Shown here one piece after another: positions 2,564 through 30,201 of a stretch of DNA of 64,000 bases. Source of the stretch: Ralstonia sp. 25mfcol4.1 (lineage in GTDB: Bacteria > Pseudomonadota > Gammaproteobacteria > Burkholderiales > Burkholderiaceae); the NCBI RefSeq assembly GCF_900104095.1, contig NZ_FNJO01000004.1:1-64000 (forward strand), given 5' to 3'. A program made the translations under genes and the position numbers. Numbering within the stretch: the first letter of the stretch is position 1; every line of letters begins with the position of its first letter. Under the pieces are notes generated by a model. It was not told the DNA's origin. It saw only the letters and a program-made list of their open reading frames with translations, and searched no databases.

Positions 2564-3553
2564 TCAATCGATCTTCGCGCCCGACACCTTGACGGCCTGT
2601 CCCCAGCGCTTCTGCTCGTTGACGATGGTTGCCGCAAACGCCTCCGGCGACTGCCATGCCGGCTCGGCGCCCTGCGCTTCAAGCTTGGCCCGGGTGTCCG
2701 GGTCCGCCAGTACGGTGCGCAGCGCCCCCGACAGCTTGTCGACGATTTCCTTCGGCGTGCCGGCCGGCGCCAGCACACCGTAAAAACCCACCACCTCGAA
2801 ACCTTTCAGGCCCGACTCCTCCATGGTCGGCACATCGGGCAGCGCCGGCGAACGCTTGCCCGACGTCACCGCCAGCGCACGCACCTTGCCGGTCTTGATG
2901 TGCTGGGTGAACAGCGGAATCGAATCGGCCATCATCTGGGCCTGGCCGCCCATCACGTCGGTCAGTGCCGGCGCGCTGCCCTTGTAAGGGATATGGACGA
3001 TGAACGTGCCCGACGCCTGCTTGAACATCTCGGGCATCAGGTGCGAAATGCCGCCATTGCCGCCCGACGCAAAATTGAGCTTGCCCGGATTGGCCTTGGC
3101 ATAGGCGATGAACTCCTTCAGGTTTTTGGCCGGCACATTGTTGTTGACGACCATCACCAGCGGAATCAGCGCGGTACGTGCCACCGGCGCAAAGTCCTTC
3201 GGCATGCTGTACGGCAGCTTGGGATAGAGCGATCCGTTGATCGCCATCTGGCCGGTATTGGCAATCAGCAGCGTATAGCCGTCGGGCGCGGCCTTGGCCA
3301 CGTTATCCGACCCGATATTGCCGGCGGCCCCCGCCTTGTAGTCAAGCACGACGGTCTGGCCCAGGATCGGCTGCAGCTTCTCGGACAGGATGCGCGCATG
3401 CGTATCGACCGGCCCGCCAGGCGGAAAGCCCACCACCATGCGAATCGGCTTGTCGGGCCAGGCGGCCTGCGCGGCGCCGGCAGCCAGAGCCAGCGGGGAA
3501 AGGACCAGGGCAGCCAGGACATGCCGGGCGCGGCGGGTAGCGAACAACGTCAT
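2564..3553 (-). CDS. Bug-family (TctC) periplasmic solute-binding protein 1
   Basis: A 329-residue periplasmic receptor of the tripartite tricarboxylate transporter family. A Sec signal peptide (about 25 residues, ending AAQAAWP) is followed by the family signature PDKPIRMVVGFPPGGPVDTHAR and the later PDGYTLLIANTG and VPYKGSAPALTDVMGGQ motifs. These form the ligand-binding cleft for a carboxylate. The start at 3553 has a GGAGAG ribosome site; the open frame continues upstream but with no signal peptide in front. It is the last gene of a leftward cluster (IclR, acyl-CoA synthetase, Bug, two DUF1254, Bug, Bug). No TctA or TctB membrane subunit is in the window, so its transport partner must lie elsewhere. 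Ligand unknown. Confidence 0.93.
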   Translation of the reverse strand: MTLFATRRARHVLAALVLSPLALAAGAAQAAWPDKPIRMVVGFPPGGPVDTHARILSEKLQPILGQTVVLDYKAGAAGNIGSDNVAKAAPDGYTLLIANTGQMAINGSLYPKLPYSMPKDFAPVARTALIPLVMVVNNNVPAKNLKEFIAYAKANPGKLNFASGGNGGISHLMPEMFKQASGTFIVHIPYKGSAPALTDVMGGQAQMMADSIPLFTQHIKTGKVRALAVTSGKRSPALPDVPTMEESGLKGFEVVGFYGVLAPAGTPKEIVDKLSGALRTVLADPDTRAKLEAQGAEPAWQSPEAFAATIVNEQKRWGQAVKVSGAKID

Positions 3554-3669
3554 TTCTCTCTCCGGATGCGGCCCCGCTCTATGCGGCAGGGACCGGTCCG
3601 GTATTGTGACGTTTTTATGACAATCTTGTGAAGGGCTTTCGCCAAGTGGCGCTGACCACAATCATCCGC

Positions 3670-4647
3670 CTACTCCAGTACGATGCCGCGCGCCTTGATC
3701 AGCGCGCCCCATTTCCTTACCTCGCCGTCGATGAACGCGGCAAAGTCCGCACTGCTGCCCGGCGACGGCTGCAGGCCGAGCGCCAGCAGCTTCTGACTGA
3801 TCTGCGGATCGGCCAGCGCCTGGCTGGCATCGCGATTGATCTGCTGCACGAGGGCGGGCGGCGTGCCGGCCGGGGCCACGATGCCGAACCAGCCGTAGCC
3901 GACCACGCCGGGCACGCCCTGCTCGGCGAACGTCGGTGCATCGGGATAGACCGGCGTGCGCGCATCGGCCGCCGCCGCGATCACGCGCAGCTTGCCGGCC
4001 TGGATAAAGGGCAGCGCGGTCGTGATCGCCGTCAGCGTGGCATCGACGCGTCCGGCCAGCAGTTCGGTATAGGCCGTGGCATCGCCGCGGTAATGGACGT
4101 TGAGCGCCTTGAACCCCGACTGCGCAGCAAACAGCTCGGCCGTCAGGTGCGGCCCCGAGCCGATGCCCGGCGACGCGAACGTGACGCCCTCGGGCTTCTG
4201 CTTCGCCATCTTCACGAAGTCCGCCACGGTCCTGACCGGCGAACTGGCATTGACGATCAGGAACACCGGCCCCAGCACGCGCGGCCCCACGGCGACGAAA
4301 TCCTTGTGGATATCGAACCGTTGCGACAGGCCGGCTGCCGTGTTGATGGCGAACGGCGCGGCCGCCCACAGCAGCGTGTAGCCATCGGCCGGTGCGTGCG
4401 CCACCGTTTCGCTGGCCACGCGCGTGCCGGCGCCGGGCTTGTTCTCGACCACCACCTGCTGCCCATACTTGCGGCTCAGCGCCTCGGCCAGCACGCGCGC
4501 CGACGTATCGTTCGATCCGCCCGGCCCGTAGGGCGACACCAGCCGCACCGGCCTGCCGGGCCAGGTATTGCCGAAGGCGTGCGGCACGACGCCGGCCAGC
4601 GCCATCGCGCCCAGCAGGCGGCGGCGGGTCAATTGCGATGGGGTCAT
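3670..4647 (-). CDS. Bug-family (TctC) solute-binding protein 2
   Basis: A 325-residue Bug receptor. The N-terminus carries an RRRLLG stretch before the hydrophobic core, resembling a twin-arginine signal, unlike the Sec-type leaders of most neighbouring Bug proteins. Core motifs WPGRPVRLVSPYGPGGSNDTSAR, ADGYTLLWAA and VHYRGDATAYTELLAGR match the family. Its ATG overlaps the stop of the DUF1254 gene at 4644 by four bases, so the two are translationally coupled. This is a strong hint that the receptor and the DUF1254 proteins serve one pathway. Ligand unknown, probably an organic acid. Confidence 0.93.
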   Translation of the reverse strand: MTPSQLTRRRLLGAMALAGVVPHAFGNTWPGRPVRLVSPYGPGGSNDTSARVLAEALSRKYGQQVVVENKPGAGTRVASETVAHAPADGYTLLWAAAPFAINTAAGLSQRFDIHKDFVAVGPRVLGPVFLIVNASSPVRTVADFVKMAKQKPEGVTFASPGIGSGPHLTAELFAAQSGFKALNVHYRGDATAYTELLAGRVDATLTAITTALPFIQAGKLRVIAAAADARTPVYPDAPTFAEQGVPGVVGYGWFGIVAPAGTPPALVQQINRDASQALADPQISQKLLALGLQPSPGSSADFAAFIDGEVRKWGALIKARGIVLE

Positions 4648-5969
4648 GATGCCTCCCGGATCCGCTCGATGGCGGGATAGCGATAGGTGCGGTCAAGGTG
4701 GTCGGGCTGGGGCACGTACAGGCGCAGCGCCACATAGAAGGCCCCGGCCGGCGCCGGCAGCCAGTTGCCGTGCGCGGCGCGATCCCGCGGGGGCTGCGCC
4801 GACAGGTACAGCGTCAGGCTGCCATCGGCGGCGCGCTTCAGTGACGGAGACCGGTCGCCCAGCGAATAGCGCGCAAGTTCGTTCGGCACCAGCATGCAGT
4901 CGCCCTTGTCGTACATGGTCAGGGACCAGAACGCGCCCACGCGCGGCAGGTTGTCGGCCGCGAAGTGCAGCCGGTAGGCGTGAGCGCCTTCGAGCGGCGC
5001 GCCGTCGGCACAGCGGTCGGCCATCACGTACATGGCCTCCTGCACGCCCAGCGCTCCAATATAGTTGCGCGCCACCAGCGCGCGTTGCAGGTAATGCGTG
5101 CCATACGACTCGCGCACGTCCACCGACATCGTCCAGCCACCGCCCATGTCCGACGCCTGCGGCTCGGCCAGGTCGGCCAGCACGGCCTGCAGCGCCGTAC
5201 CCAGCGTCTCGACCTGCGCCGGCGTGGGCGCAAGCCCCTTGCCGATACCGGCTTCGGCAAAGCGGGCCACCACATCGGCTTCTGCCGGCGGGGGCGGGTT
5301 GTCGGCCAGCATCCGGTTGACCACGGCGGCAAAGCGCCGCGGATCGCCCAGATGCTCGCGCGGCTGCATGCCGACATCGAACGCGAACGCGGCCGGCTCC
5401 CCGTCGAGCCGCTGCAGCGCGATGGCATCCTGCAGCGCATGGCCGGCGGCCAGGTCGGCATCGCCGTCCACCAGCAGCCGGCCGATCATCCACACCGCAT
5501 TGGTCGGACACGCAACGGCCCGCATGCCGGCAGGTACTTCGCCATGCCAGTCGGGCCCGTGCAGCAGAAAGCGGCCAGCGCCGGTGCCCGTGGTGCGGCT
5601 GCCCAGATAGCCAAACGGATTGGTATAGAAATCGAGCAGGCCCAGCACATAGTAGCGGCCGGCAAAGTCGGGCACTTCGAGCACCACGGGCTCGCGCGAC
5701 AGGTCGAGCCAGGCATTGGTGTACAGCGTGTCGTTGTTCGGCGTGACGACCTGGCGATGCTGCGGGCCCAGCAGTTCGCGCGTGTGGATCAGGTGGTTGA
5801 CCCAGCGCAGCGAGGATTCGGGGCCATCGCCGGCGAACTGCCTGGCCCGGTCACGGCGCGGGCATGTGGCCGCGCGCATGCGGGCCATCTCGTAGAGCGG
5901 CAGCGTGTAGATCACGGCTTCGCGGGCAAGCTGCAGGCCGGGGCTGGCGGCGGTGGTGGTTTGTGGCAT
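4644..5969 (-). CDS. DUF1254/DUF1214 protein A
   Basis: A 441-residue member of the two-domain DUF1254 + DUF1214 family. The N-terminal half has the family hallmarks VVTPNNDTLYTNAWLDLS and GRYYVLGLLDFYTN; the C-terminal half has FWSLTMYDKGDCMLVPNELARYSLGDR and NWLPAPAGAFYVALRLYVP. The biochemical function of the family is not firmly known. Many members carry a signal peptide, but this one starts directly with a soluble sequence, suggesting a cytoplasmic role. A paralogue lies 54 bp upstream and a Bug receptor overlaps its 3' end by 4 bp. The context (acyl-CoA synthetase, three Bug proteins) suggests metabolism of an imported acid. Confidence 0.88.
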   Translation of the reverse strand: MPQTTTAASPGLQLAREAVIYTLPLYEMARMRAATCPRRDRARQFAGDGPESSLRWVNHLIHTRELLGPQHRQVVTPNNDTLYTNAWLDLSREPVVLEVPDFAGRYYVLGLLDFYTNPFGYLGSRTTGTGAGRFLLHGPDWHGEVPAGMRAVACPTNAVWMIGRLLVDGDADLAAGHALQDAIALQRLDGEPAAFAFDVGMQPREHLGDPRRFAAVVNRMLADNPPPPAEADVVARFAEAGIGKGLAPTPAQVETLGTALQAVLADLAEPQASDMGGGWTMSVDVRESYGTHYLQRALVARNYIGALGVQEAMYVMADRCADGAPLEGAHAYRLHFAADNLPRVGAFWSLTMYDKGDCMLVPNELARYSLGDRSPSLKRAADGSLTLYLSAQPPRDRAAHGNWLPAPAGAFYVALRLYVPQPDHLDRTYRYPAIERIREAS

Positions 5970-6023
5970 GGGTTGGTGTCTCCTTTCCCTTATATATGTA
6001 GCGAGGCGTGTTCCGCACCACGC

Positions 6024-7370
6024 TCAGCCGATCCGGCGCACGGCGGGGATCGCGTACTGGCCCGCGATGAAGCCGGCGGATGGGTGGTACAGCCGCAGGA
6101 TCAGGTAGAACGGGCCATCGGGCGCGGGCAGCCAGTTGGCATCGTCGGACGGCCGGGCATGGCCGATAGGAATCACCAGCGTGCCGTCCGGCTCCAGGCG
6201 CAGTCCCGGGGTGCGATCGCCCACCGCATAGCGGCCGATCTCGTTGGCCGAGAAATAGCGGTCCTCCCCGTACAGCGATACCGACCAGAACGCCTCGGCC
6301 GGCGGCAGCATGCCGGGCGCGAAACGCAGTTCGTATCGATGCCGGCCATGCAGCGGCTCGCCGTTGGCGTCGAAATCGGCCATCGCATAGACGGCCTCGT
6401 CCGCGCGCAAGGCGCCCAGCCCCTTCATCGCCGTGCAGGCGCGCAGCACCCAGTCGTCTCCATAGACGCCCAGCCGCATGCTGTAGCCCCACGCCTTGTG
6501 CCCCTGGCTGCGGGTATGGGCTTCAATCAGCGCCATGCCCTGGGCATACGCGCTGCGCAGGCCGTTGACGATGGACGGCCGCAGCGCGGCCATCTCCACA
6601 TCGTCCTCCAGCCGCAGGCCCACCTTGCGCAGCAGCGTGAACAGGCCGCGCTCCTGCGCGCTGGGCGGAAAATCGCGCATCGCGCGGAACAGGTTCTGGA
6701 AGAAGTCCACCCCGGCGTCGCCGGTGTCCTGCCACCGCGCCACGCTGGCCGGCCGTGCCGCCCCGGCGCTTTGCTCCACCTGGAAGCCCTGCTCGAATGC
6801 GTTGGCACGCGCCAGGTCGTCAGGACCGGTCACCAGCACCCGGCCGATGATCCAGACCAGCGTGGTGGGCGCCTCCACCACGTGCGCGCCGCTGCCGCGC
6901 TGGCCGGGGCCCACGATCTCGACATCGGCGCCCTCGCGTGGCACGGTGCGTGGCCCAAGGTTGGCGAAGTTGTTGGTGTGGGCATCCAGCAGTTCGACCA
7001 CGTAGTAGCGGTCGGCATCGGGCAGCGCCGGCACGCGGATCGTGGCCGGGCCATCGGCCAGGTTGAGCCATCCGCAGAAATAGAGCAGGTCGTTGGCGGG
7101 GGTGACGATGTCGCGGTCTTCGTGCGTCCACTGGCGCGCGCTGGCCGACAGCATGTTCATCGGTGCGCGGCCGTAGCGCGTGGGGGCGTCCACCGACGTC
7201 TGCAGCCGGCAGGTGCGCAGGGTTTCGATCAACGGGTAGCCGTAGATCACCAGCGGCAGCGCGGCAGCGGCCACCAGGGCCTCCTGCGGGCTGGCGTGAA
7301 CCGGCGAACCCAGGGCGGAAGGACTGGCGGAAGGGTTGGCGGCGGGTTCGGGAAAGGCGGGATGGTTCAT
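6024..7370 (-). CDS. DUF1254/DUF1214 protein B
   Basis: A 448-residue paralogue of the next gene downstream. Aligned motifs are DIVTPANDLLYFCGWLNLA, RYYVVELLDAHTNNFANLG, FWSVSLYGEDRYFSANEIGRYAVGDRTPG and NWLPAPDGPFYLILRLYHP. The two differ throughout, so this is an old duplication or two subunits, not a recent tandem copy. No signal peptide is visible: the N-terminus is Pro/Ala/Ser-rich and low in complexity. It lies 31 bp downstream of a Bug gene and 54 bp upstream of the other paralogue in the same leftward cluster. Function unknown; a hetero-oligomer of A and B is possible but speculative. Confidence 0.88.
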   Translation of the reverse strand: MNHPAFPEPAANPSASPSALGSPVHASPQEALVAAAALPLVIYGYPLIETLRTCRLQTSVDAPTRYGRAPMNMLSASARQWTHEDRDIVTPANDLLYFCGWLNLADGPATIRVPALPDADRYYVVELLDAHTNNFANLGPRTVPREGADVEIVGPGQRGSGAHVVEAPTTLVWIIGRVLVTGPDDLARANAFEQGFQVEQSAGAARPASVARWQDTGDAGVDFFQNLFRAMRDFPPSAQERGLFTLLRKVGLRLEDDVEMAALRPSIVNGLRSAYAQGMALIEAHTRSQGHKAWGYSMRLGVYGDDWVLRACTAMKGLGALRADEAVYAMADFDANGEPLHGRHRYELRFAPGMLPPAEAFWSVSLYGEDRYFSANEIGRYAVGDRTPGLRLEPDGTLVIPIGHARPSDDANWLPAPDGPFYLILRLYHPSAGFIAGQYAIPAVRRIG

Positions 7371-7401
7371 AGCGATGGTCAGGGTGGATGGGATGTCGGG
7401 T

Positions 7402-8397
7402 TCATTCCAGCGCGGTGCCGCTCGATTTGACTAGCGCGGCCCACGCCCGCGCGTCGTCGCGCATCTGGTTGGTGAACTGCGTTCGCGACACGGGCTGGTA
7501 GCGCATGCCCATCGCCGCGATCTGTGCCTGCAGCGCGCTGTCCTGCATGGCTTCCTGCATCGCGCTTTCCAGCCGGTCGACGATGGCCGGCGGCGTCCTG
7601 GCCGGCGCGAACATCGCGTACCAGCTGTCGACACGGAAGGCAATGCCGGACTCGGCGAACGTCGGCACATCGGGCAGCGCGGCGGACCGTTCCGAGCCCG
7701 ACACCGCCAGCGCACGCACCTTGCCGCTGCGGATCAGCGGCAGGGTGCCGGCCAGATCGGACATGGCGACAGGCACCGTGCCGCCCATCACGTCATTGAG
7801 CATCGGCGCCACGCCCTTGTACGGCACATGCCGCAGGTGGATGCCGGCGGACACGTTCAGGCTCTCGCCGGCCAGATGGCCGCCCGATCCCTGCCCCCAT
7901 GAGCCATAGGCCAGGTCCGCGCCGGGCTGCTTCGCCATGGCAATCAGCGCGCGCACGTCATGGGCGGGAAAGGCCGGATTGGCCACCAGCACATTGCCGC
8001 CATAGGCAATGCGGCCGATGGGCACGAAATCGCGCAGCGGGTCGTAGGTCAGCTTCGGGAAGATCGCCGGGGCAATCGCGTGCGTGGCCGAGATGCCCAG
8101 CAGAATCGTGTAGCCATCGGGCGCGGCACGCGCCACCTGTGCCGCGCCGATGGTGCCGGTGGCGCCCGCCACGTTCTCGACGACCACCGTGCCCTTGAGC
8201 ACCGTCGACAGGCGCGCGGCCACCATGCGTCCCACCACGTCGGTGCCGCCGCCCGGCGGGAACGGCACCACCAGCCGGATCGGCTTGCCGGGGTACGCGT
8301 CCGCAGCCACTGCCGCGGGCAACGCCATCCCGCCCGTCACACCTGCCGCCAGGCACAAGGCCAGGGCGTGCCGCATCCTGCGAATTGCTGATCGCAT
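7402..8397 (-). CDS. Bug-family (TctC) solute-binding protein 3
   Basis: A 331-residue Bug receptor with a Sec signal peptide (about 32 residues, ending AAVAAD). Family motifs are YPGKPIRLVVPFPPGGGTDVVGR, APDGYTILLGISATH, LRHVPYKGVAPMLNDVMGG and ALPDVPTFAESG. It sits between the acyl-CoA synthetase (36 bp upstream) and DUF1254 protein B (31 bp downstream), so co-transcription is likely. It should capture the acid that the synthetase then activates. It has no membrane partners nearby. Confidence 0.93.
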   Translation of the reverse strand: MRSAIRRMRHALALCLAAGVTGGMALPAAVAADAYPGKPIRLVVPFPPGGGTDVVGRMVAARLSTVLKGTVVVENVAGATGTIGAAQVARAAPDGYTILLGISATHAIAPAIFPKLTYDPLRDFVPIGRIAYGGNVLVANPAFPAHDVRALIAMAKQPGADLAYGSWGQGSGGHLAGESLNVSAGIHLRHVPYKGVAPMLNDVMGGTVPVAMSDLAGTLPLIRSGKVRALAVSGSERSAALPDVPTFAESGIAFRVDSWYAMFAPARTPPAIVDRLESAMQEAMQDSALQAQIAAMGMRYQPVSRTQFTNQMRDDARAWAALVKSSGTALE

Positions 8398-8433
8398 GGT
8401 CTGTCTCCGTATTGTCCAGGATGGGTTGCTGCG

Positions 8434-10572
8434 TCAGCGCAGCGTGATCACGGCGTCCGCCGCCACCAGCCCATCGGGGCCGACGATGAACGGGTTGATT
8501 TCCAGCGTATCGAGCCGGTCGCCAATCGCGGCTGACGCGCGCGACACGTTGACCAGCACGTCAGCCACCGCATCGAGGTCGATGGCGGGATGGCCACGGT
8601 GCCCGCTGCACAACGCGGCGGCGCGGCTCTGCGCCAGCATCGCGCGAGCGCGCCGGCGCGACAGCGGCGCCAGCCCGAACGCCATCTGCCGGAAGATCTC
8701 CACGGCCGTGCCGCCGATGCCGGCCAGCGCCACCAGGCCGAATACCGGGTCGCGCCGCACGCCCACCATGATCTCGCCCCAGCCGCGCGCCATGCCCGCG
8801 ACGATGGCGCCCTCGAAGGGCACCGCGTTGCCCCCGGCATCGCGTGCCTGCGCTGCGGCCCGGCGCACCTGCGCGAACGCGGCGCGCACGGCGTCGGCAT
8901 CGCGCAGGTTCAGCACCACGCCGCCGATATCGCTCTTGTGCAGGATATGGCGCGAGCAGATCTTGACGGCCACCGGGTAGCCGATCGATTCGGCAAGGTC
9001 CACCGCCGCTTCGGCATGCTGGGCCACGCCGTGCGGCACCACCGGCACGCCGGCAGCAGCCAGCAATGCCATCGCCTCGGCTTCCGACAGCGCGGTGGCG
9101 TCGGGCGGCAGGGCTGGTGGATGAACAGGCGCGATGTCGTCGCCGCCCGCCGCGTCTTTGGCCGCTTCCATCGCGGCCGCCTTCGCCAGCGCGGCCACGG
9201 CTTCCATCGTGTGCGCGGGCTCGCGGAACACCAGACAGCCCCGCGCTTCAAGCCAGGCGCGCCTGTCGTCGTCCATCACGCCCGAGATCAGCAACGGCGC
9301 GGCGTGGCGATCGCCTTCCAGCGCGGACACGGTGTCCTGGAGCACGGGCCAGAGGCGCGGCGCATTGACGCCGCCGGCCAGAAATGCCGCCACAGCACCG
9401 TACTGGCCGCAGCGCGCCACGTTGGCCAGCGCATCGACGAATACCTGCGGCTGCGCCACCACCTGGCCCGTGACGTCGATGGGATTGGCGGTACTGGCAA
9501 ACGGGATGGCCGTGCGCAGCGCCTGGGCCGCGGCATCCGGCATCGGCGGCAACGGCAGGCCCAGCGTCTCGGCGCTGTCGGCCATCATGATGCCCACCCC
9601 GCCCGATACCGTGACGATGGCCACGGGCGCCACCGCATCGGCGGCCAGGCCGGTCGGCGATTGCCAATGCGCCGGTCGCCGGCCACGCGCCAGCGTATAG
9701 CCGAGCCGGAAGAATGCTTCGAGCGTATGCGCGCGATGCACGCCGTATTCGTCGAAGACCGCCTGGTACACGGCGTCCTCGCCAGCCAGACTGGCCGTAT
9801 GCGATTGCGCGGCGCTGGCGCCCGCCGCCGTGGTGCCCACCTTGGCGATCACCACGGGCTTGCCGGCGGCGCGGGCGGCGGCGAGCGCGCGGCGCAAGCG
9901 CATGCCGTCGCGCGCGCCCTCGACATAGGCCAGGATCACTTGCGTCTGCGGATCGTTGGCCAGCCATTCGATCACGTCAGCCACCTGCAGCCCGGCCTCG
10001 TTGCCCGTGGTCACCCAATGGCTCAGGCCCAGCCCCGCTTCGCGCGCCAGCGCAAACGCGTATGCGCCAAATGCGCCGCTCTGGCTGACCAGCCCCACGT
10101 GGCCCACCGGCGGCACGCCGCTGAGCGGAATCGGCGAGAACGTGGCGAACATGCGATCGCGCAAATTCATCGCACCCAAGCAGTTGGGACCGAGCAATTG
10201 CACGCCATGCGCGTGGGCCTGCGCGGCCAGTGCGTGCTGCAGGGCATCCCCGCCGCTGACTTCGGCAAAGCCGGACGTGAACACCACGGCCGCCCGCGTG
10301 CCGGCCTGGCCCAGTTGCGCCATCACGTCGGGCGCGGCGGGTGCCGGCACGGCCACGATGGCCAGATCGACGGGCTCGCCGATGTCGGCCACGGTCGCAT
10401 AGGCGCGCAGCCCCTGCACGGTATCGGCGCCGGGGTTGACCGGAAACACGCGGCCGCCGTAGCCAAGTTCGCCAAGCAGGCGAATCGGCACGCCACCCAC
10501 CTTCTCGGGCTGCGTCGATGCACCGACCACCGCGATCGATCGCGGGCACAACAAGGGCTGCAGGTCCAGCAT
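8434..10572 (-). CDS. ADP-forming acyl-CoA synthetase (acetate-CoA ligase family)
   Basis: A 712-residue fused alpha-beta acyl-CoA synthetase (NDP-forming) that makes an acyl-CoA from an acid, CoA and ATP through a phosphohistidine. Residues about 1-130 are the CoA-binding Rossmann domain (RSIAVVGASTQPEKVGG). The central ligase-CoA domains contain the phospho-histidine motif QSHTASLAGED. The C-terminal part from about residue 490 is an ATP-grasp domain (LLAAAGVPVVPHG, GYPVAVKICSRHILHKSDIGGV). Length and order match GNAT-less members such as feruloyl-CoA or acetyl-CoA ligases of this class. It is the first enzyme gene after IclR and probably activates the acid imported through the linked Bug proteins. 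Substrate not predictable. Confidence 0.92.
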   Translation of the reverse strand: MLDLQPLLCPRSIAVVGASTQPEKVGGVPIRLLGELGYGGRVFPVNPGADTVQGLRAYATVADIGEPVDLAIVAVPAPAAPDVMAQLGQAGTRAAVVFTSGFAEVSGGDALQHALAAQAHAHGVQLLGPNCLGAMNLRDRMFATFSPIPLSGVPPVGHVGLVSQSGAFGAYAFALAREAGLGLSHWVTTGNEAGLQVADVIEWLANDPQTQVILAYVEGARDGMRLRRALAAARAAGKPVVIAKVGTTAAGASAAQSHTASLAGEDAVYQAVFDEYGVHRAHTLEAFFRLGYTLARGRRPAHWQSPTGLAADAVAPVAIVTVSGGVGIMMADSAETLGLPLPPMPDAAAQALRTAIPFASTANPIDVTGQVVAQPQVFVDALANVARCGQYGAVAAFLAGGVNAPRLWPVLQDTVSALEGDRHAAPLLISGVMDDDRRAWLEARGCLVFREPAHTMEAVAALAKAAAMEAAKDAAGGDDIAPVHPPALPPDATALSEAEAMALLAAAGVPVVPHGVAQHAEAAVDLAESIGYPVAVKICSRHILHKSDIGGVVLNLRDADAVRAAFAQVRRAAAQARDAGGNAVPFEGAIVAGMARGWGEIMVGVRRDPVFGLVALAGIGGTAVEIFRQMAFGLAPLSRRRARAMLAQSRAAALCSGHRGHPAIDLDAVADVLVNVSRASAAIGDRLDTLEINPFIVGPDGLVAADAVITLR

Positions 10573-10648
10573 GGTGTCTCCGTTGATGACACCGCGGTAC
10601 GCGCCACGGCGTTCTGTCGTGCGGGCGATCCGGGCCCGCGTCCGGCGG

Positions 10649-11461
10649 CTAGCGTCCCACGCCAGCCATGTTCTCGATGGCGCGCACCATCTCGCGCAGC
10701 AGCGGCGCCACGCGCTTTTCCATCATGCCGCGCCTGACGCGCAGACCCGGCAGCGCGCAGTTGAACAGCAGCGGCCGGTTCAGATACGTAATGCGCGAAT
10801 ACACGCCCACGCCATGGATGTCCTCGCCGGCGTCGCCTTCATTGAGCGTGAAGCCGCGCTTGGGGTAGTGCGCCACGTTGTGGCAGACGGTCTCGTAGCA
10901 GACGCCGAATTCCTGCGGCCGCTCGGTGCGCGCCAGCATCATCAGCTTCTCGAACTCGCCCTTCGACAGCGTGCAGAGGAAAGCCCGCCCCATCGCCGTG
11001 GTCAGCACCGAACGTACCGCGCCCACGGCCGGCCGCGCCGACGTGCCCTCCAGGTGCGTGCACGACTCCAGGTACGTCACGTCCAGCCGGTGCGCCACGC
11101 CCATCGACACGGCGCCCTCCACCTGGTTGGCCAGCGCCTGCATCAGCGGCCGCGCCAGGTGGCGCACCTGCAGGCCGGCCAGGTAGGGATACCCAAGTGC
11201 CAGCACCTGCGCACCCACGAAATACTTGTCGAGCTTGGGATCCCAATCCAGATAGCCCAGTTCGAACAGCGTTCGGCAGATGCGCGACACCGTGGCGCGT
11301 GGCAGTTGCAGCCGCTGCGACAGCTCGCCATTGCCCAGCGGGCGCGGATCGTCGATGAAGCAGCGCAGCAGCGCAAACCCCTTGGCCAGCAGCCCGCCGA
11401 ACGAAGGGTCTTCGCGACGGCGTTCGGCAATGAATTGTTCGACCGGGGTGTTCATGGGCAT
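10649..11461 (-). CDS. IclR-family transcriptional regulator
   Basis: A 270-residue IclR regulator. The N-terminal winged helix (about residues 25-85: KGFALLRCFIDDPRPLGNGELSQRL, PRATVSRICRTL) is followed by the effector domain with typical motifs (YLESCTHLEG, LTTAMGRAFLCTL, GEDIHGVGVYSRI). The start at 11461 is supported by an AGGAG six bases upstream; an in-frame ATG two codons later (11455) is an alternative. It heads the leftward acyl-CoA synthetase/Bug/DUF1254 cluster, which it probably controls together with its own promoter. Its closest functional analogues control aromatic and organic acid catabolism, but the effector here is unknown. Confidence 0.92.
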   Translation of the reverse strand: MPMNTPVEQFIAERRREDPSFGGLLAKGFALLRCFIDDPRPLGNGELSQRLQLPRATVSRICRTLFELGYLDWDPKLDKYFVGAQVLALGYPYLAGLQVRHLARPLMQALANQVEGAVSMGVAHRLDVTYLESCTHLEGTSARPAVGAVRSVLTTAMGRAFLCTLSKGEFEKLMMLARTERPQEFGVCYETVCHNVAHYPKRGFTLNEGDAGEDIHGVGVYSRITYLNRPLLFNCALPGLRVRRGMMEKRVAPLLREMVRAIENMAGVGR

Positions 11462-11564: not shown

Positions 11565-11625
11565 GTGCGCGCGGACGAATCGTAAGGTGCAAAACCGAAT
11601 CCGAATTCGCATACGGAAAATCGTC

Positions 11626-12309
11626 ATGCAAGCTGCCTCCACAGGTAACGAAACCGCCACTTCCGCATCGGCCTTTCCCCGGGTCGATACGTCGTCGATC
11701 CTGCAGCCGCCGCGCCAGCGCCGGGCGCGGGAGACCGAGCAGGCCCTGCTGACGGCGGGACGCCAGTTGTTGGCCGACCGCGATTTCGCGGCCGTGTCGG
11801 TCGCGCAGATCGCAGCCGCCTGTCAGGTGTCGGTGGGTGCGTTCTACGGCCGGTTCCGCGACAAGATGGCGTTCTTCGATGCGCTGCGCGCGTCGGTGAT
11901 GGAGGAATCCGATGCGTCGGTTGCGCGCTACATGGCCGAGCATCGCTGGCAGGAAGCGCCGGCGGCCCAGATCCTCGACAAGACCATGCGCTTCATGGTG
12001 AACGGCTGCCGCAATAACCGTGGCGTGATTCGCGCATCGCTCAAGCACGCCACCACGCATCCCGAGCAGTGGCTGCCGCACCAGAAGAACGGACAGGCGC
12101 TGATCGACCGGCTCGTGATCCTGCTGGTGCCGCGCCTGTCCGGCCCGGCCGACGAAGCCGAGCTGCGCGTGCGGTTTGCGATGCAGATGGTGTTCGGGAT
12201 GCTCGTCAATGCCGTGCTGAACAATCCGGGGCCGCTGCAACTCGATGACGAGCGCCTGCCCGGCGAAATGGCACGCATGGTTGGCCGCTACCTGGGCATC
12301 GAAGCCTGA
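11626..12309 (+). CDS. TetR-family regulator
   Basis: A 227-residue TetR/AcrR protein. The HTH is at about residues 30-75 (LLADRDFAAVSVAQIAAACQVSVGAFYGRFRDKMAFFDAL) and the C-terminal half is the helical ligand domain. The start could also be GTG at 11587, giving 240 residues with a repetitive Arg/Ile head that looks untranslated; the ATG at 11626 is preferred. It is divergent from iclR and 118 bp upstream of a Bug gene it may regulate. The stretch just before the ATG contains a CGAATTCG palindrome (around 11600-11610) that could be an operator. Ligand unknown. Confidence 0.88.
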   Translation: MQAASTGNETATSASAFPRVDTSSILQPPRQRRARETEQALLTAGRQLLADRDFAAVSVAQIAAACQVSVGAFYGRFRDKMAFFDALRASVMEESDASVARYMAEHRWQEAPAAQILDKTMRFMVNGCRNNRGVIRASLKHATTHPEQWLPHQKNGQALIDRLVILLVPRLSGPADEAELRVRFAMQMVFGMLVNAVLNNPGPLQLDDERLPGEMARMVGRYLGIEA

Positions 12310-12427
12310 CGGGCAGGGCCGCCTCCCACTCGCTTTCCCTCGCTTCATCCGTCCAACCGCCCGCATCAGCCGCAACCATAGCGGCATGTCTGGGAAGCAG
12401 ACCGGGCACAAAAAGAGGAGACACACC

Positions 12428-13426
12428 ATGAAGCAAACCAAGCTGCCGCGCCGGCGGTGGGCGGCACGCGTGACTTGCGCGGCGATGTCGCTGCTGCCGC
12501 TGGCCGCGCTTGCGCAGGGCGACTATCCGACCAAGCCGATCCGCCTGGTGGTGCCCTACCCGGCCGGCGGACTGACCGACACGCTGGCGCGCCAGGTGGC
12601 CGACGGGCTGTCCAAACGGCTCGGCCAGCCGGTGGTGGTGGAAAACAAGAGCGGCGCGGGCGGCATTATCGGCACCGATTTCGTCGCCAAGTCGGCGCCC
12701 GACGGCTATACGCTGCTGATGACGATTCCGGGGCCGATCACCGCCAACCTGGCGCTCTACAAGAAGCTGCCCTACGACCCGCGCACCGACCTGCGCCCCG
12801 TCTCGGACGTGGCGATGGCCCGCACGGTGCTGGCCGTCAACAGCGGCGTGCCGGTCAAGACCGTCAACGAGCTGATCACCTACGCCAAGAAAGAACCGGG
12901 CAAGCTGCGCATGGGATCGTGGGGGCCGGGCACGCAGCCGCACACCATCCAGGCCTACATGGACAAGACCTACGGCGTCGACATCCTGCATGTGCCGTAT
13001 CGCGGCGAAGGGCCGATGGTGACCGACCTGCTGGCCGGCCAGGTCAACGTGACGATCGGTTCGGTCACCACGCTGCGCCAGCACATCGCCACCGGCAAGC
13101 TGCGGCCGTTGGCCGTGGCCGGCACCACGCGCGCCAGGGCGTTGCCCGATGTACCGACGTTCGCCGAGGCCGGCTATGGCGATGCGGCCTACAAGATCGT
13201 CGGCCCGACAACGCTGCTGACACCGGCGAAGACTCCTGACGCCATCGTCGAGCGGCTGGGCCGCGAAGTGGCGTCGCTGGTCAGGACGCCCGAGATGCAG
13301 GCAAAGATCGACGAAATGGGCGCCGAGCCGATCGGCAACACGCCGGGTGAGGCCGAGCGCGCCTACAAGGCGTATCTGCCGGTGGTGCTGAAGCTCACCG
13401 CCGATACCGGCGTGACGCTCGACTGA
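12428..13426 (+). CDS. Bug-family (TctC) solute-binding protein 4
   Basis: A 332-residue Bug receptor with a Sec signal peptide after a basic start (KQTKLPRRRW; cleavage near ALAQG). Motifs are YPTKPIRLVVPYPAGGLTDTLAR, APDGYTLLMTIPGP, ILHVPYRGEGPMVTDLLAGQ and ALPDVPTFAEAG. GAGGAG lies 7 nt before the ATG at 12428. It follows the TetR gene on the same strand, so it is a likely TetR target and perhaps a second receptor for the divergent catabolic cluster. No membrane components are present. Confidence 0.93.
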   Translation: MKQTKLPRRRWAARVTCAAMSLLPLAALAQGDYPTKPIRLVVPYPAGGLTDTLARQVADGLSKRLGQPVVVENKSGAGGIIGTDFVAKSAPDGYTLLMTIPGPITANLALYKKLPYDPRTDLRPVSDVAMARTVLAVNSGVPVKTVNELITYAKKEPGKLRMGSWGPGTQPHTIQAYMDKTYGVDILHVPYRGEGPMVTDLLAGQVNVTIGSVTTLRQHIATGKLRPLAVAGTTRARALPDVPTFAEAGYGDAAYKIVGPTTLLTPAKTPDAIVERLGREVASLVRTPEMQAKIDEMGAEPIGNTPGEAERAYKAYLPVVLKLTADTGVTLD

Positions 13427-22449: not shown

Positions 22450-23988
22450 TTAGGCTGCCTTGCGATGCTGCTGGTGGCGGCGTTCTGGCTTGCACTCGTA
22501 CTTGAGTTCGCGCCGGCCGTCCTCGTAGACCACTTCCAGCCGCACCGTAAATCCCCATAGCCGCGTGACGTGGCGGATCACCTCGTCGAAGTTCTGCGCC
22601 AGCGGACGGCGATCCTGCTGCAGATGGCGCAGCGTCAGCGAGCGGTCGCCGCCGATATCGACATTGGTCACCTGGATATTCGGCTCCATGTTCGACAGGT
22701 CGTACTGGGTCGCCAGCAGCCGGCGGATCTCGCGATAGCCTTCGTCGTCGTGGATGGCCGTCACGCGCAGCTTGCCCTCGCGGTCGTCGTCCAGCACCGA
22801 AAACAGCTTCAGCTCGCGAATCACGCGCGGCGACAGGAACTGCAGCAGGAAGCTCTCGTCCTTGAAGTTGCGCATCGCAAAATCGAGCGTCTGGCGCCAG
22901 TCGCTGCCGGCAATCTCGGGCGCCCAGCGCCTGTCTTCCTCGGTCGGGTTCTCGCACATGCGGCGCAGGTCCTGGAACATCAGGAACCCCACCGTGTACG
23001 GATTCAGGCCGCTGTAGTACGGGCTGTGGTACGGCGGCTGGTAGATGACGTTGGTATGCGCCTGCAGCAATTCGAGCATGAACGCATCATTGACCAGCTT
23101 TTCCTCGTACAGCTGGTTGATGATGGTGTAATGCCAGAACGTGGCCCAGCCTTCGTTCATGACCTTGGTCTGCCGCTGCGGATAGAAATACTGGGCAACC
23201 TTGCGCACGATGCGTACGATCTCGCGCTGCCACGGCTGCAGCTTCGGTGCGTTCTTCTCGATGAAGTAGAGCAGGTTTTCCTGAGGCTCCGGCGGGAAGG
23301 TCACCTCGAACTCTGCAGCCTCCTCTTCCTCACGCAGGGCGTGGGGGCGATGCTTGGGCAGCGTGCGCCACAGGTCATTGACCTGCATCTGCAGGTAGTT
23401 TTCGCGTTCTGCCTGGCGAGCCTGCTCTTCGGTGATCGACAGCTTCTTGGGCCGCTTGTAGCGGTCCACCCCGTAGTTCTGCAGCGCGTGGCAGGAATCC
23501 AGCAGCATTTCGACTTCCTGCTCGCCGTATCGCTGCTCGCACTCGGCCACGTAGTTCTTGGCAAACAGCAGGTAGTCGATGATCGCGTCCGCGTTGGTCC
23601 AGGTGCGGAACAGGTAGTTGCCCTTGAAGAACGAGTTGTGGCCGTAGCAGGCGTGCGCGATGGTCAGCGCCTGCATCGGCATCGTGTTCTCCTCCATCAG
23701 GTACGCGATGCAAGGATTGGAGTTGATCACGATCTCGTAGGCCAGCCCCATGTAGCCACGCTGGTAGCCGCGCTCCGACGCCAGGAAGTGCTTGCCGTAC
23801 GACCAGTGGCTGTAGCCGACCGGCAGCCCCGCCGACGCATACGCGTCGAGCATCTGCTCGGCGGTGATGATCTCTATCTGGTTGGGATAGGTGTCCAGCC
23901 CGAACTCGCCGGCGATGCGGGCGATTTCGCGGTCATAACGCTGGATCAGCTCGAAGGTCCACTCCGAGCCCGTCGAAAGATAGGCCAT
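22450..23988 (-). CDS. ycgB: SpoVR family protein
   Basis: A 512-residue cytoplasmic protein of the SpoVR/YcgB family (length as expected). Motifs include GHNSFFKGNYLFRTWTNADAI, MNEGWATFWHYTIINQLYEE, and the conserved PYYSGLNPYTVGFLMFQDLRR. It has many Glu/Asp/His residues in conserved blocks. It is the third gene of the prkA-yeaH-spoVR set, 63 bp after yeaH. In enterics the trio is induced in stationary phase and nitrogen starvation; the molecular role of SpoVR remains unclear. Confidence 0.95.
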   Translation of the reverse strand: MAYLSTGSEWTFELIQRYDREIARIAGEFGLDTYPNQIEIITAEQMLDAYASAGLPVGYSHWSYGKHFLASERGYQRGYMGLAYEIVINSNPCIAYLMEENTMPMQALTIAHACYGHNSFFKGNYLFRTWTNADAIIDYLLFAKNYVAECEQRYGEQEVEMLLDSCHALQNYGVDRYKRPKKLSITEEQARQAERENYLQMQVNDLWRTLPKHRPHALREEEEAAEFEVTFPPEPQENLLYFIEKNAPKLQPWQREIVRIVRKVAQYFYPQRQTKVMNEGWATFWHYTIINQLYEEKLVNDAFMLELLQAHTNVIYQPPYHSPYYSGLNPYTVGFLMFQDLRRMCENPTEEDRRWAPEIAGSDWRQTLDFAMRNFKDESFLLQFLSPRVIRELKLFSVLDDDREGKLRVTAIHDDEGYREIRRLLATQYDLSNMEPNIQVTNVDIGGDRSLTLRHLQQDRRPLAQNFDEVIRHVTRLWGFTVRLEVVYEDGRRELKYECKPERRHQQHRKAA

Positions 23989-24051
23989 AGACTTCCCCAG
24001 TGGATGCCGGCCCGCGCCCCGCGCAGCGCCGGTTTGCTGCCGAATGCCCTG

Positions 24052-25329
24052 CTATCTGGTGGCCGGCCACGCCGCGCGTTTCTGGAACAGGTCGTGCAAC
24101 ACGGGGTAGATCTCGTCCGCACCGATGATGCGCTGCATCGCGAAGTGCTCGAACTGGTTCTTAACCGTGAGGTACTCTTCCCAGAGATTCTGCGGCTCTT
24201 CCGAAGCCACCTCCACATACGCGTAGTACTGCACCAGCGGCAGGATCGACTCGCGCAGCAGCCGGCCGCACAGTTCGGAATCCCCTGCCCAGTTATCGCC
24301 GTCCGACGCCTGGGCGCAATAGATGTTCCACTGGCTCGGCGGATAGCGCTCATGAATCACATCAACCATCAGCTTCAGCGCGCTCGAAACCACGGTACCA
24401 CCGGATTCCCGCGAATGGAAGAAATCCTCCTCCTCCACCTCCTTGGCCACCGTGTGATGGCGGATGAACACCACGTCGATGCGCTCGTAGTTGCGCTTCA
24501 GGAACAGGTACAGCAGCATGAAAAACCGTTTGGCCAGGTCCTTGCGGCTTTCGTCCATCGAGCCCGAAACGTCCATCAGGCAGAACATCACCGCCTGCGC
24601 CTGCGGCCGCTTCTTTAGCACGCGGTTGTTGTAGCGCAGGTCGAGCTTTTCGATGAACGGCACGCGGTCCACCTGGGCCCGCAGGTGGCGCATCTTCTCC
24701 ATCAGCGCCTCGGCCTGTTCGGAATATGGCCCTTCCTTCTCGAGCACCTCGTTGTACTCGATCTCCAGTTCGTGCAACCGCTTCATGTAGGGGCTGGACA
24801 GCGCGATACGCCGCCCGAGCGAACTGCGCATGGTGCGCAGGATCGACAAATTCGATGGGGTGCCGTCGATGGAGAAGCCGGCGCGCACCTTGCGCACCTC
24901 GGCAATCTTGGCGAGGTGGCGCTTGGCCAGGTCGGGCAGCGCCATGTCCTCGAAGAAGAAATTCAGAAAGTCCTCGCGCGACAGCGTGAAGACGAAATCG
25001 TCCTCGCCTTCGCCGCTGTCGCTGGCACGTGACCCGGTACCACCACTGCCCTGCTGCTGGCGGTCGAAGCTGTCACCCCGGACGAATTTCTTGTTGCCGG
25101 GGTGAATCCACTCCCGCTTGCCGCCCTGGCCGTGGTGGAAGATCGGCTCGGAGATGTCCTTGACCGGAATGGACACCTGCCCGCTCTGCTCGATGTCCAT
25201 GATCTTCCGGCCGGACACCGCCTTCGCCACCGCCTGCCGGATCTGCTCGCGGTAACGCTTGATGAAGCGTTGCTTGTTGACGGCGCTCTTGTTGCCGCCG
25301 TTCTCGCGCCGATCGATGACCGTACCCAT
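24052..25329 (-). CDS. yeaH: YeaH/YhbH family (DUF444) protein
   Basis: A 425-residue DUF444 protein. The C-terminal half is a von Willebrand A-like domain with MIDAS-type DVSGSMDES (FCLMDVSGSMDE, about residue 250), followed by TVVSSALKLMVDVI and a DGDNWAGDS stretch. The N-terminal part is basic with a conserved GNKKFVRGD block, a linker, and a helical region. It lies between prkA and spoVR and is normally co-expressed with the kinase, likely as a partner or substrate. Confidence 0.95.
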   Translation of the reverse strand: MGTVIDRRENGGNKSAVNKQRFIKRYREQIRQAVAKAVSGRKIMDIEQSGQVSIPVKDISEPIFHHGQGGKREWIHPGNKKFVRGDSFDRQQQGSGGTGSRASDSGEGEDDFVFTLSREDFLNFFFEDMALPDLAKRHLAKIAEVRKVRAGFSIDGTPSNLSILRTMRSSLGRRIALSSPYMKRLHELEIEYNEVLEKEGPYSEQAEALMEKMRHLRAQVDRVPFIEKLDLRYNNRVLKKRPQAQAVMFCLMDVSGSMDESRKDLAKRFFMLLYLFLKRNYERIDVVFIRHHTVAKEVEEEDFFHSRESGGTVVSSALKLMVDVIHERYPPSQWNIYCAQASDGDNWAGDSELCGRLLRESILPLVQYYAYVEVASEEPQNLWEEYLTVKNQFEHFAMQRIIGADEIYPVLHDLFQKRAAWPATR

Positions 25330-25401
25330 ATGCCGTCTGTCCGCCGTGGTAAGAGACGCCAGGAAAAGCGCGCCGTGGATAAAGACCGCGTCCGGAACCG
25401 G

Positions 25402-27324
25402 TTACGAAGATTTCCTGACGCGCAGATACCACTCCACCAAAAGTCGAACCTGCTTGGGTGTATAGCCTTTCTCAACCATGCGGTTGATGAAGTTCTCGTG
25501 CTTTTCCTGATCCTCGCGCGACGACTTGGCATTGAACGAGATGACCGGCAGCAGGTCTTCCGTGGTGGAGAACATGCGCTTTTCGATCACCATCCGCAGC
25601 TTCTCGTAGCTGGTCCACACCGGGTTCTTGCCCCCGTTGTTGGCACGGGCCCGCAGCACGAAGTTGACGATCTCGTTGCGGAAGTCCTTCGGGTTCGAGA
25701 TACCGGCCGGCTTTTCCACCTTCTCCAGTTCGTCGTTCAGGGCATTGCGGTCCAGGATCTCACCGGTATTCGGATCGCGATACTCCTGATCCTGTATCCA
25801 CAGGTCCGCAAACACCACGTAGCGGTCGAAGATGTTCTGGCCGTACTCGGAATACGACTCCAGGTAGGCGGTCTGGATCTCCTTGCCGATGAATTCCACG
25901 TACGGCGTGGTCAGGTACTCCTTTATGTACGACATCAACTTGGCTTCCTGCTCCGGCGGGAACTGCTCGCGCTCGATCTGCTGCTCAAGCACGTACAGCA
26001 GGTGCACCGGATTGGCCGCCACCTCGGTATTGTCGAAGTTGAACACTTTCGACAACACCTTGAACGCGAAGCGGGTGGACAAGCCGTTCATGCCTTCGTC
26101 GATGCCTGCGTAGTCGCGATACTCTTGATACGACTTCGCCTTGGGGTCCACGTCCTTGAGGCTCTCGCCGTCATAGACGCGCATCTTCGAGAAGACGTTC
26201 GAGTTCTCCGGCTCCTTGATCCGCGTGAGCACGGCGAACTGCGCCATCATCTTCAGCGTGTTTGGTGCGTTGGGCGCCGCCGACAGCGAACTGCTGCGAA
26301 GCAGCTTGTCGTAGATCTTCACCTCGTCCGACACGCGCAGGCAGTAAGGCACCTTGACGATATAGATCCGGTCAAGGAAAGCCTCATTGTTCTTGTCCGC
26401 CTTGAACGTCTGCCACTCGGCCTCGTTCGAGTGCGCGAGGATGACGCCATCGAACGGAATCGCTCCAAAGCCTTCCGTGCCCTTGTAATTGCCTTCCTGC
26501 GTAGCGGTCAGCAGCGGGTGCAGCACCTTGATGGGTGCCTTGAACATTTCCACGAACTCGAGCAGGCCGCGATTGGCCAGGCACAGGCCGCCCGAATACG
26601 AATAGGCGTCCGGGTCGTCCTGCGGGAAGTCTTCGAGCTTGCGGATGTCGACCTTGCCAACCAGCGACGAAATGTCCTGGTTGTTCTCGTCGCCCGGCTC
26701 CGTCTTCGAGATGGCAATCTGCGCCAGCACCGACGGGCGCAGCTTCACCACACGGAATTTCGTGATATCCCCGTTGAACTCGTGCAGCCGCTTGACGGCC
26801 CATGGCGACGGAATGGTATTCAGGTAGCGCACCGGAATGCCATAGTCTTCCTCCATGATCTTGCCGTCCTCTTCCGGCGAGAAGAGCCCGAGCGGAGATT
26901 CATGGATGGGCGAACCCTTGAGCGCGTAGATCGGAATCTCTTCCATCAGCGCCTTGAGCTTCTCGGCCAGCGACGACTTGCCACCTCCGGGAGGCCCAAG
27001 CAGGTACAGGATCTGTTTGCGTTCTTCCAGGCCCTGCGCCGCGTGCTTGAAGAAGGAGACGATCTGTTCGATCGTGTCTTCCATCCCGTAGAAGTCGCGG
27101 AACGCCGGGTAGACCCGGATAACCTTGTTGAAGAACAGTCGGGACAGGCGCGGATCGTGGTGGGTATCCACCAGTTCAGGCTGTCCGATAGCGGCGAGCA
27201 TGCGTTCGGCGGCAGTCGCGTAGGCAGCAGGATCCTTCTTGCAGATCTCCAGGTATTCCTGGATGCTGTATTCCTCTTCCTTGCGCGCTTCGAATCGCGT
27301 GGCGTAGTGGCCAAAAATGTCCAT
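25402..27324 (-). CDS. prkA: PrkA serine protein kinase / AAA+ ATPase
   Basis: A 640-residue PrkA (YeaG) protein. The Walker A GPPGGGKS is at residues 110-117 within a AAA+ domain, and the C-terminal PrkA domain follows (for example YTPKQVRLLVEWYLRVRKSS at the end). Length and motifs match the family. It phosphorylates proteins in Bacillus and E. coli and affects survival under nutrient limitation; other studies describe an AAA+ protease-like role. First gene of prkA-yeaH-spoVR. A large bulged hairpin sits 54-119 bp upstream of the ATG. Confidence 0.96.
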   Translation of the reverse strand: MDIFGHYATRFEARKEEEYSIQEYLEICKKDPAAYATAAERMLAAIGQPELVDTHHDPRLSRLFFNKVIRVYPAFRDFYGMEDTIEQIVSFFKHAAQGLEERKQILYLLGPPGGGKSSLAEKLKALMEEIPIYALKGSPIHESPLGLFSPEEDGKIMEEDYGIPVRYLNTIPSPWAVKRLHEFNGDITKFRVVKLRPSVLAQIAISKTEPGDENNQDISSLVGKVDIRKLEDFPQDDPDAYSYSGGLCLANRGLLEFVEMFKAPIKVLHPLLTATQEGNYKGTEGFGAIPFDGVILAHSNEAEWQTFKADKNNEAFLDRIYIVKVPYCLRVSDEVKIYDKLLRSSSLSAAPNAPNTLKMMAQFAVLTRIKEPENSNVFSKMRVYDGESLKDVDPKAKSYQEYRDYAGIDEGMNGLSTRFAFKVLSKVFNFDNTEVAANPVHLLYVLEQQIEREQFPPEQEAKLMSYIKEYLTTPYVEFIGKEIQTAYLESYSEYGQNIFDRYVVFADLWIQDQEYRDPNTGEILDRNALNDELEKVEKPAGISNPKDFRNEIVNFVLRARANNGGKNPVWTSYEKLRMVIEKRMFSTTEDLLPVISFNAKSSREDQEKHENFINRMVEKGYTPKQVRLLVEWYLRVRKSS

Positions 27325-28203: not shown

Positions 28204-29118
28204 TCAGATCGGATCCCAGTTGATGACATCGGGCGATCGATCCAGCTTGAAGAAGCTCGAACGCATCGCCGGCATGGCGATCTCGGCCACGGTCTCCGGG
28301 GTCCAGCCTTCGCTGGTATGCACCGAGCGCACCGGACGCGGCTGGCTCATCAGCATGATTTCGTTGGCGCGTACTGCGAAGATCTGGCCATTGACCTCGC
28401 TGGCCGCATCGCTGGCCAGGAACACCGCCACCGGCGCGATTTTTCCGGCTTCCATCTTCTGCAGGCGCTGCACGCGGGCCTTCTCCTCGGCCGTCTCGGC
28501 CGGGATCGAGCTGGTCATGCGGCTCCAGGCAAATGGTGCGATGCAGTTCGAACGCACGTTGAAGCGCGCCATGTCCAGGGCAATGGATTTGGACAGCGCG
28601 GCAATGCCGAGCTTGGCCGCCGAGTAGTTGGCCTGGCCCAGGTTGCCGATCAGGCCCGACGTCGACGTCATATGGACGAAGGCGCCGCTTTCCTGGTCCT
28701 TGAAATAGTTGGCGGCGGCGCGGCTCACAAAGAACGTGCCGTGCAGATGCACGTCGATCACCGAGCGCCACTCCTCCTCGTTCATCTTGAAGAACATGCG
28801 GTCGCGCAGGTTACCGGCGTTGTTGACCACGGCGTCGATGCGGCCGAAATTGTCGAGCGCGCACTGGACGATGGCATTGGCGCCCGCCCAGGTTGACACG
28901 CTATCGGTATTGGCCACAGCCTCGCCGCCGGCCGCGCGGATTTCTTCCACCACGCGCTGCGCCGGCCCGGCGTCGCCGCCTTCCCCGCTCATCGACACGC
29001 CCAGGTCGTTCGCCACCACGCGCGCACCGGCTGCGGCCATGCCCAGCGCGATGCCCCGGCCGATGCCCCCGCCTGCGCCCGTCACCACCACGACCTTGCC
29101 TGCCATCATTCCACTCAT
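28204..29118 (-). CDS. SDR-family oxidoreductase
   Basis: A 304-residue short-chain dehydrogenase/reductase. The NAD(P)-binding TGAGGGIGRG (about residues 11-20), NNAG motif, and catalytic YSAAK (Tyr-x-x-x-Lys) are all present. The long C-terminus and VVANDLGVSMSGEGG segment resemble the 3-hydroxyacyl-CoA dehydrogenase domain of peroxisomal multifunctional enzyme type 2, so a hydroxyacyl-CoA substrate is a fair guess. AAGGAG lies six bases before the ATG at 29118. It is divergent from a LysR gene that may regulate it. Confidence 0.9.
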   Translation of the reverse strand: MSGMMAGKVVVVTGAGGGIGRGIALGMAAAGARVVANDLGVSMSGEGGDAGPAQRVVEEIRAAGGEAVANTDSVSTWAGANAIVQCALDNFGRIDAVVNNAGNLRDRMFFKMNEEEWRSVIDVHLHGTFFVSRAAANYFKDQESGAFVHMTSTSGLIGNLGQANYSAAKLGIAALSKSIALDMARFNVRSNCIAPFAWSRMTSSIPAETAEEKARVQRLQKMEAGKIAPVAVFLASDAASEVNGQIFAVRANEIMLMSQPRPVRSVHTSEGWTPETVAEIAMPAMRSSFFKLDRSPDVINWDPI

Positions 29119-29220
29119 CTTCGACTCCTTGCGTGCGAGATTGCCGGGTTCCGGAACGTCACCCGTTCTATTGCCAACGCACATACGATAAATTGTCGGC
29201 GGAGTTTCTGGAATTCACGA

Positions 29221-30156: not shown

Positions 30157-30177
30157 GTCGGTTTTGCGCGTTGTTCC

Positions 30178-30201
30178 CTCTCCCGCCCGCACGCGGGAGA
30201 G
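30178..30201. terminator. 9-bp perfect hairpin between convergent genes
   Basis: CTCTCCCGC (30178-30186) and GCGGGAGAG (30193-30201) form a perfect stem with a 6-nt loop, between the ends of the LysR and Bug genes. No T-run follows. It may be a bidirectional terminator or a dispersed intergenic element of this genome. Confidence 0.5.

Follow-up and report, generated by a model that had tools for sequence, protein, structure and literature searches.

In the 64,000-nucleotide stretch of the soil bacterium Ralstonia sp. 25mfcol4.1 analysed here (contig NZ_FNJO01000004.1, positions 1 to 64,000; the window), a conserved gene set appears to import an organic acid, attach coenzyme A (CoA) to it and hand the product to a protein of the DUF1254/DUF1214 family, below called DUF1254. 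Its tight cluster consists of six genes, which encode an IclR-family regulator, an acyl-CoA synthetase (ACS), two receptors (Bug1 and Bug2) and two DUF1254 proteins (D1 and D2). This locus is genuine and conserved, and it is functional when viewed as a CoA-dependent acid pathway. In its relatives we observed a conserved linkage of these genes, replacement of ACS by a CoA-transferase, fusion of ACS to DUF1254, and a receptor lineage that travels with them. The genes of the locus and its neighbours are as follows.

2564..3553, from its ATG, minus strand: Bug3, a neighbour outside the conserved core (PF03401)
3670..4647, minus strand: Bug2, a TctC-type receptor co-travelling with D2 (PF03401)
4644..5969, minus strand: D2, a DUF1254/DUF1214 protein without signal peptide, of a lineage fused to ACS in other bacteria (PF06863 and PF06742)
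6024..7370, minus strand: D1, a DUF1254/DUF1214 protein without evident signal peptide (PF06863 and PF06742)
7402..8397, minus strand: Bug1, a TctC-type periplasmic receptor (PF03401)
8434..10572, minus strand: ACS, an NDP(ADP)-forming acyl-CoA synthetase with alpha and beta parts in one chain (PF13380/PF02629, PF13607, PF13549)
10649..11461 (longest open reading frame, ORF, to 11530), minus strand: IclR-family regulator (PF09339 and PF01614)
11587..12309, plus strand: divergent TetR-family regulator, beyond the region of the first-pass annotation (PF00440)
12425..13426, plus strand: Bug4, a TctC-type receptor (PF03401)

Sixty Cupriavidus genomes were compared, and 40 regions were taken from genomes that encode a D2 ortholog of full length. 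At the cut-off used, 59 of the 60 genomes had at least one DUF1254 match, and 46 had an ACS ortholog. DUF1254 lay within 2 kb of ACS, on the same strand, in 45 of these 46 genomes; in the sole exception (L252) a contig edge falls inside or at ACS. Co-occurrence in relatives, the absence of which the first-pass annotation had named as evidence against its proposal, was therefore borne out. ACS, D1, D2 and Bug2 were found together in 37 of the 40 regions, with D1 in 38 and Bug4 in 38. At 70% identity or more, IclR was present in 25 of the loci and Bug1 in 22, and the TetR-family regulator, at 50% or more, in 16, so that it is a conserved neighbour in part of the genus. In more distant Cupriavidus layouts (e.g. 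L056-L062) Bug4 is on the operon strand and follows Bug2 directly; neither Bug1 nor an IclR of the window type was seen in them. Six Cupriavidus genomes (L194, L195, L196, L197, L247, L248) carry D1 alone beside ACS; D1 and D2 are thus no obligate pair, and with most other loci encoding one D2-type protein the earlier idea of a necessary pair had to be dropped. Three Cupriavidus genomes (L063, L249, L250) have D2 but no ACS match, and in two of them D2 is split over two matches, as if decaying.

Beyond the genus, named genomes were scanned with an alignment of D2-type proteins, and the best 80 of 125 relatives, chosen by DUF1254 similarity and blind to their neighbours, were analysed. Some of these genomes also supplied Cupriavidus regions (e.g. 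L174 and L073), so the two sets of counts are not additive. A CoA-activating enzyme was present in the cluster of 76 of the 80 relatives. In one layout, found in Comamonadaceae, a class III CoA-transferase takes the place of ACS and is followed by DUF1254 and Bug2 (45 of 80); a divergent LysR gene lies within 600 bp in 44 of these 45 loci. In another layout, ACS and DUF1254 form one ORF of 1105-1170 residues (19 of 80), in which linkers of about 0-52 residues separate the matched parts. Pfam identified L137, cut by a contig end, as a further fusion, for a total of 20 fusion loci (labelled within L139-L158, plus L162 and L137), and for the whole of fusion L158 (1115 residues) it returned CoA_binding, Succ_CoA_lig, ATP-grasp_5, DUF1254 and DUF1214. 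According to the record titles, the fusions occur in ten genera: Pollutimonas, Bordetella, Noviherbaspirillum, Advenella, Pseudolabrys (a metagenome-assembled genome, MAG), Allopusillimonas, Caenimonas, Polaromonas (MAG), Candidimonas and Pusillimonas. Fusion locus L156 is from Allopusillimonas soli. ACS followed by DUF1254 as a separate gene was found once (L165), the only unfused case of that layout among the 80. The window's own order, D1, D2 and Bug2 with ACS on the same strand, was seen in 10 of the 80, with ACS upstream in nine and, in L170, 2.4 kb downstream of D2. In Variovorax sp. J22R187 the other strand carries a further two DUF1254 genes next to the D1/D2 cluster (L161:748-3429).

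Among ten annotated plasmid DUF1254 loci, one has a CoA ligase and one a Bug. On the Novosphingobium plasmid, an annotated long-chain-fatty-acid--CoA ligase gene lies 64 bp before the DUF1254 gene. In the tree, the DUF1254 proteins of those two plasmid loci branch as sisters of the D2 lineage, but support for this is weak (86/60) and the placement carries a long-branch warning.

An order conserved over dozens of genomes, together with gene fusions, is not due to chance. The first-pass suggestion that DUF1254, ACS and Bug act together on an imported acid is strongly strengthened by this order, by the CoA-transferase swap and by the fusions, and ACS or CoA-transferase, DUF1254 and Bug2 very probably form a joint pathway.

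The receptor follows the same pattern. The nearest Bug (for fusions, the upstream one) was Bug2-like in 75 of the 80 loci, and these 75 and the window's Bug2 form an exclusive clade, 76 of 134 Bugs (FastTree, local support 1.0). A common ligand class is the simplest reading of one Bug2 lineage across three layouts. All four Bug proteins of the window contain PF03401, and by its family Bug2 would be expected to bind a carboxylic acid in the periplasm. It is like the known TctC/Bug receptors (the terephthalate-binding TBP, 8hka; Bug27; BugD) in family and size, but forms a clade of its own.

All seven genes that the first-pass annotation placed on one strand do lie on the minus strand, and their Pfam labels match those it gave. 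The gaps between ORFs are 76 bp (IclR-ACS), 36 bp (ACS-Bug1), 31 bp (Bug1-D1) and 54 bp (D1-D2), and the D2 and Bug2 ORFs share 4 bp (ATGA). This overlap, reported earlier, is real here but not general: of the 38 Cupriavidus loci where it could be measured, 7 have alignment ends of D2 and Bug2 that touch or overlap, and the other 31 have gaps of 11-125 bp. Bug3, 116 bp from Bug2, had been counted as a member of the unit; it reaches at least 70% identity in only 6 of the 40 Cupriavidus loci, so it is a variable neighbour and not core. Before Bug3 there is one promoter-like match, against 1.3 expected by chance. The genome (6.34 Mb) holds 113 TctC/Bug genes, 8 DUF1254 places and 6 strong synthetase matches among 11 ATP-grasp_5 matches; with so many Bug genes, a Bug neighbour on its own is weak evidence.

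ACS contains the CoA-binding, succinyl-CoA-ligase-like and ATP-grasp_5 domains, and its SHT motif aligns with the swinging-loop histidine region of the solved ADP-forming synthetases 4xyl, 8wzu and 9y43. We take the histidine of this motif to be the phosphorylated one. Judged from its domains and motif, ACS would make the CoA-thioester of an acid. The same domain set and SHT region are found in the ACD family (4-hydroxybutyrate--CoA and 3-hydroxypropionate--CoA ligases and ckcACD1; 8wzu, 9y43, 4xyl), from which ACS differs in scoring below every NCBIfam equivalog cut-off and in being coupled or fused to DUF1254.

Both D1 and D2 contain PF06863 followed by PF06742, above the gathering scores, and have the fold of solved DUF1254/DUF1214 members; the structure model of D2 has a predicted local distance difference test score (pLDDT) of 92.1. 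The Asp, Arg and Asn-Trp positions conserved throughout the family are retained in both; among the conserved positions of D2 are D80, R105, D113, R125 and R164. D2 has no hydrophobic N-terminus, in agreement with the earlier statement that it lacks a signal peptide. D1 has a hydrophobic stretch that equals a signal peptide in strength by a crude score, yet no basic residues precede it, and by eye it sits where the first helix of the domain lies. In the fusions DUF1254 is C-terminal to the CoA ligase, and there it is therefore cytosolic. D2 is 90% identical to its relative in Cupriavidus sp. EM10 and 81% to that of C. metallidurans CH34, a laboratory strain that carries the locus (L047/L079); the organism of the window is accordingly a Cupriavidus. 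D1 belongs to a clade of 14 rows (support 100/100) apart from the clade of D2, transferase-type and fusion proteins (37 rows, 97/98). Ratios of nonsynonymous to synonymous substitution (dN/dS) for D1 and D2 against five relatives were 0.08-0.16, which indicates that both are kept functional.

The family is widespread. Archaea as well as bacteria are among the carriers in our control genomes, and PMC4634964 describes members in fungi and algae and an algal ortholog induced by sulfur depletion. Structures have been solved since 2007 (PDB release dates), including VPA0106 and VPA0735 of Vibrio parahaemolyticus (3u07, 3vb9, 2p3y), structural-genomics entries for which the matches name no function. 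We found no biochemical function for DUF1254 in the literature searched, which was mostly outside subscription journals, and a function published elsewhere is possible; nor did we find literature on DUF1254 fused to an acyl-CoA synthetase.

Further genes accompany some of the loci. A short-chain dehydrogenase, with (3R)-hydroxyacyl-CoA dehydrogenase 2et6 as best PDB match, is encoded downstream, in the same orientation, in 9 of the 20 fusion loci and in L165, and the same dehydrogenase is near two transferase-type loci (L097, L130). A thiolase is downstream in three of the 20 fusion loci (L137, L145, L148) and in L165; it passes the NCBIfam BktB subfamily cut-off (680 against 565 bits) and falls short of the stricter equivalog cut-off (725). 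A metallo-beta-lactamase-fold protein that carries an alkyl-sulfatase dimerisation domain is encoded within or next to 8 of the 126 loci searched (one genome twice), plus two more; those with D1/D2 clusters are L092, L093, L170, L072, L073, L074, L077, L196 and L197. On a Roseobacter litoralis plasmid (L176) the DUF1254 gene is flanked by two annotated arylsulfatase genes. Separately, a second Bug-containing, catabolic-looking cluster at 28204-34059 of the window encodes a short-chain dehydrogenase that shares 45% identity with the one in the fusion loci.

We propose that Bug2 would capture a carboxylic acid in the periplasm, that the acid would enter by a permease encoded elsewhere, and that ACS would convert it to the CoA-thioester. 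In the cytosol, DUF1254 (D2, which D1 joins or replaces in Cupriavidus) would then act directly on the thioester, most likely as an enzyme of the lyase, hydratase or hydrolase type, giving a 3-hydroxyacyl-CoA or enoyl-CoA that the dehydrogenase and thiolase would process. Provided that the pathway begins with activation of the acid and goes on to oxidise a 3-hydroxyacyl-CoA, DUF1254 would fit between these two steps. IclR (LysR in relatives) may sense the acid or a product. We infer that DUF1254 is an enzyme, and likewise its reaction and the acid; of the readings considered, catalysis on the CoA-thioester fits best, and we rate it as somewhat probable. More tentatively, ACS::DUF1254 might be a bifunctional activate-and-convert enzyme, and cytosolic DUF1254 a new acyl-CoA lyase/hydratase class with a double beta-sandwich fold, analogous to DddX and DddD but for a widespread acid, which the sulfatase-like neighbours suggest may be organosulfur or sulfated. 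According to PMC8163506, these dimethylsulfoniopropionate (DMSP) lyases form DMSP-CoA first and then cleave it. The logic of DddX, an ACD enzyme, and DddD, a CoA-transfer enzyme, parallels that of ACS or CoA-transferase III with DUF1254, as an analogy only; in DddX cleavage occurs inside the synthetase itself (PMC8163506), whereas here a separate family or a fused domain is added. DddX is a weaker PDB match to ACS than the hydroxyacid ligases are, and there is no evidence for DMSP as substrate.

Several results weigh against action on the thioester. Fold comparison of DUF1254 gave no convincing match to a known enzyme. Neither the Cupriavidus locus nor most of the others encode the thiolase or the dehydrogenase; for the latter, the best match in the window's genome is the 45% one noted above, too distant for a close ortholog. 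No same-strand CoA enzyme was in view in 4 of the 80 D2 relatives. Among the divergent loci, the D2-type DUF1254 of L138 and L155 is followed by a TAXI/NMT1-like receptor in place of Bug2 (in L155 also by a DctM permease), L159 starts at a contig edge and has an ACS 3.8 kb away in the opposite orientation, and in L164 DUF1254 stands alone. Finally, a survey of 399 genomes of the order listed 54 places with ACS relatives, 7 of them known DUF1254 loci; as a control, 19 of the remaining 47 regions were scanned by hmmsearch with a 66-row DUF1254 model, and none contained DUF1254. The link is thus one-sided, and ACS does not need DUF1254. These DUF1254-free clusters also contain Bugs, and the slot beside ACS is occupied in L228 and L233 by nitronate-monooxygenase-family proteins and in L231 by an acyl-CoA dehydrogenase. 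ACS-Bug clusters are therefore modular, with DUF1254 filling a slot held elsewhere by redox enzymes, which is a hint of catalysis by DUF1254 and no demonstration.

Those redox enzymes also speak against the idea that DUF1254, without catalysing a reaction, modulates the CoA-activating enzyme or retains its product, as a domain for binding, scaffolding or allostery, as do the maintenance of D1 and D2 as separate lineages and the tight conservation of polar positions across the family, even in secreted members with no CoA enzyme alongside; we regard such a role as improbable. Slightly better placed, although still unlikely, is a role before activation, in which cytosolic DUF1254 would release the free acid from an imported ester, lactone or sulfate ester, for ACS or the CoA-transferase to use. 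The alkyl-sulfatase-like protein near some loci and the Roseobacter gene between arylsulfatases would suit this role, but the sulfatase-like protein is absent from most loci, DUF1254 is C-terminal to the ligase in the fusions, and later genes of the fusion loci encode CoA-thioester enzymes. It would also be in line with PMC4634964, where a DUF1214 relative of Malassezia is guessed from a homology model to be a glycosyl hydrolase; that DUF1254 is itself a glycoside hydrolase, as proposed there, seems very improbable. An incidental neighbourhood in Bug-rich genomes, to which the 113 Bug genes and the Bugs of DUF1254-free ACS clusters lend some colour, is close to excluded by the 20 fusion loci, the CoA-transferase at the same place as ACS and the single receptor lineage throughout. 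Direct action of DUF1254 on the CoA-thioester is the reading we prefer.

Three other regions of the window deserve mention. SpoVR, DUF444 and PrkA genes (Pfam) stand in a row on the minus strand at 22450-27324. At 51915-55646 there are genes for a malonate decarboxylase alpha subunit and a carboxyl-transferase, likely an mdc operon. The gene at 350-1963, a neighbour conserved at 70% in 10 of the 40 loci, encodes an exonuclease-domain protein (Pfam) with a long C-terminal extension, which presumably resembles UvrC/Cho.

DUF1254 is a large orphan family, and the gene set described here gives it a first testable role. Ten named genera in which it is fused to an acid:CoA ligase, together with the CoA-transferase swap in Comamonadaceae, provide a defined biochemical setting for DUF1254. 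The Bug2 lineage offers a second handle on the acid, since the ligand of Bug2 should equal the substrate. If ACS::DUF1254 were indeed a bifunctional activate-and-convert enzyme, the large DUF1254 family would be one of acid- or acyl-converting enzymes.
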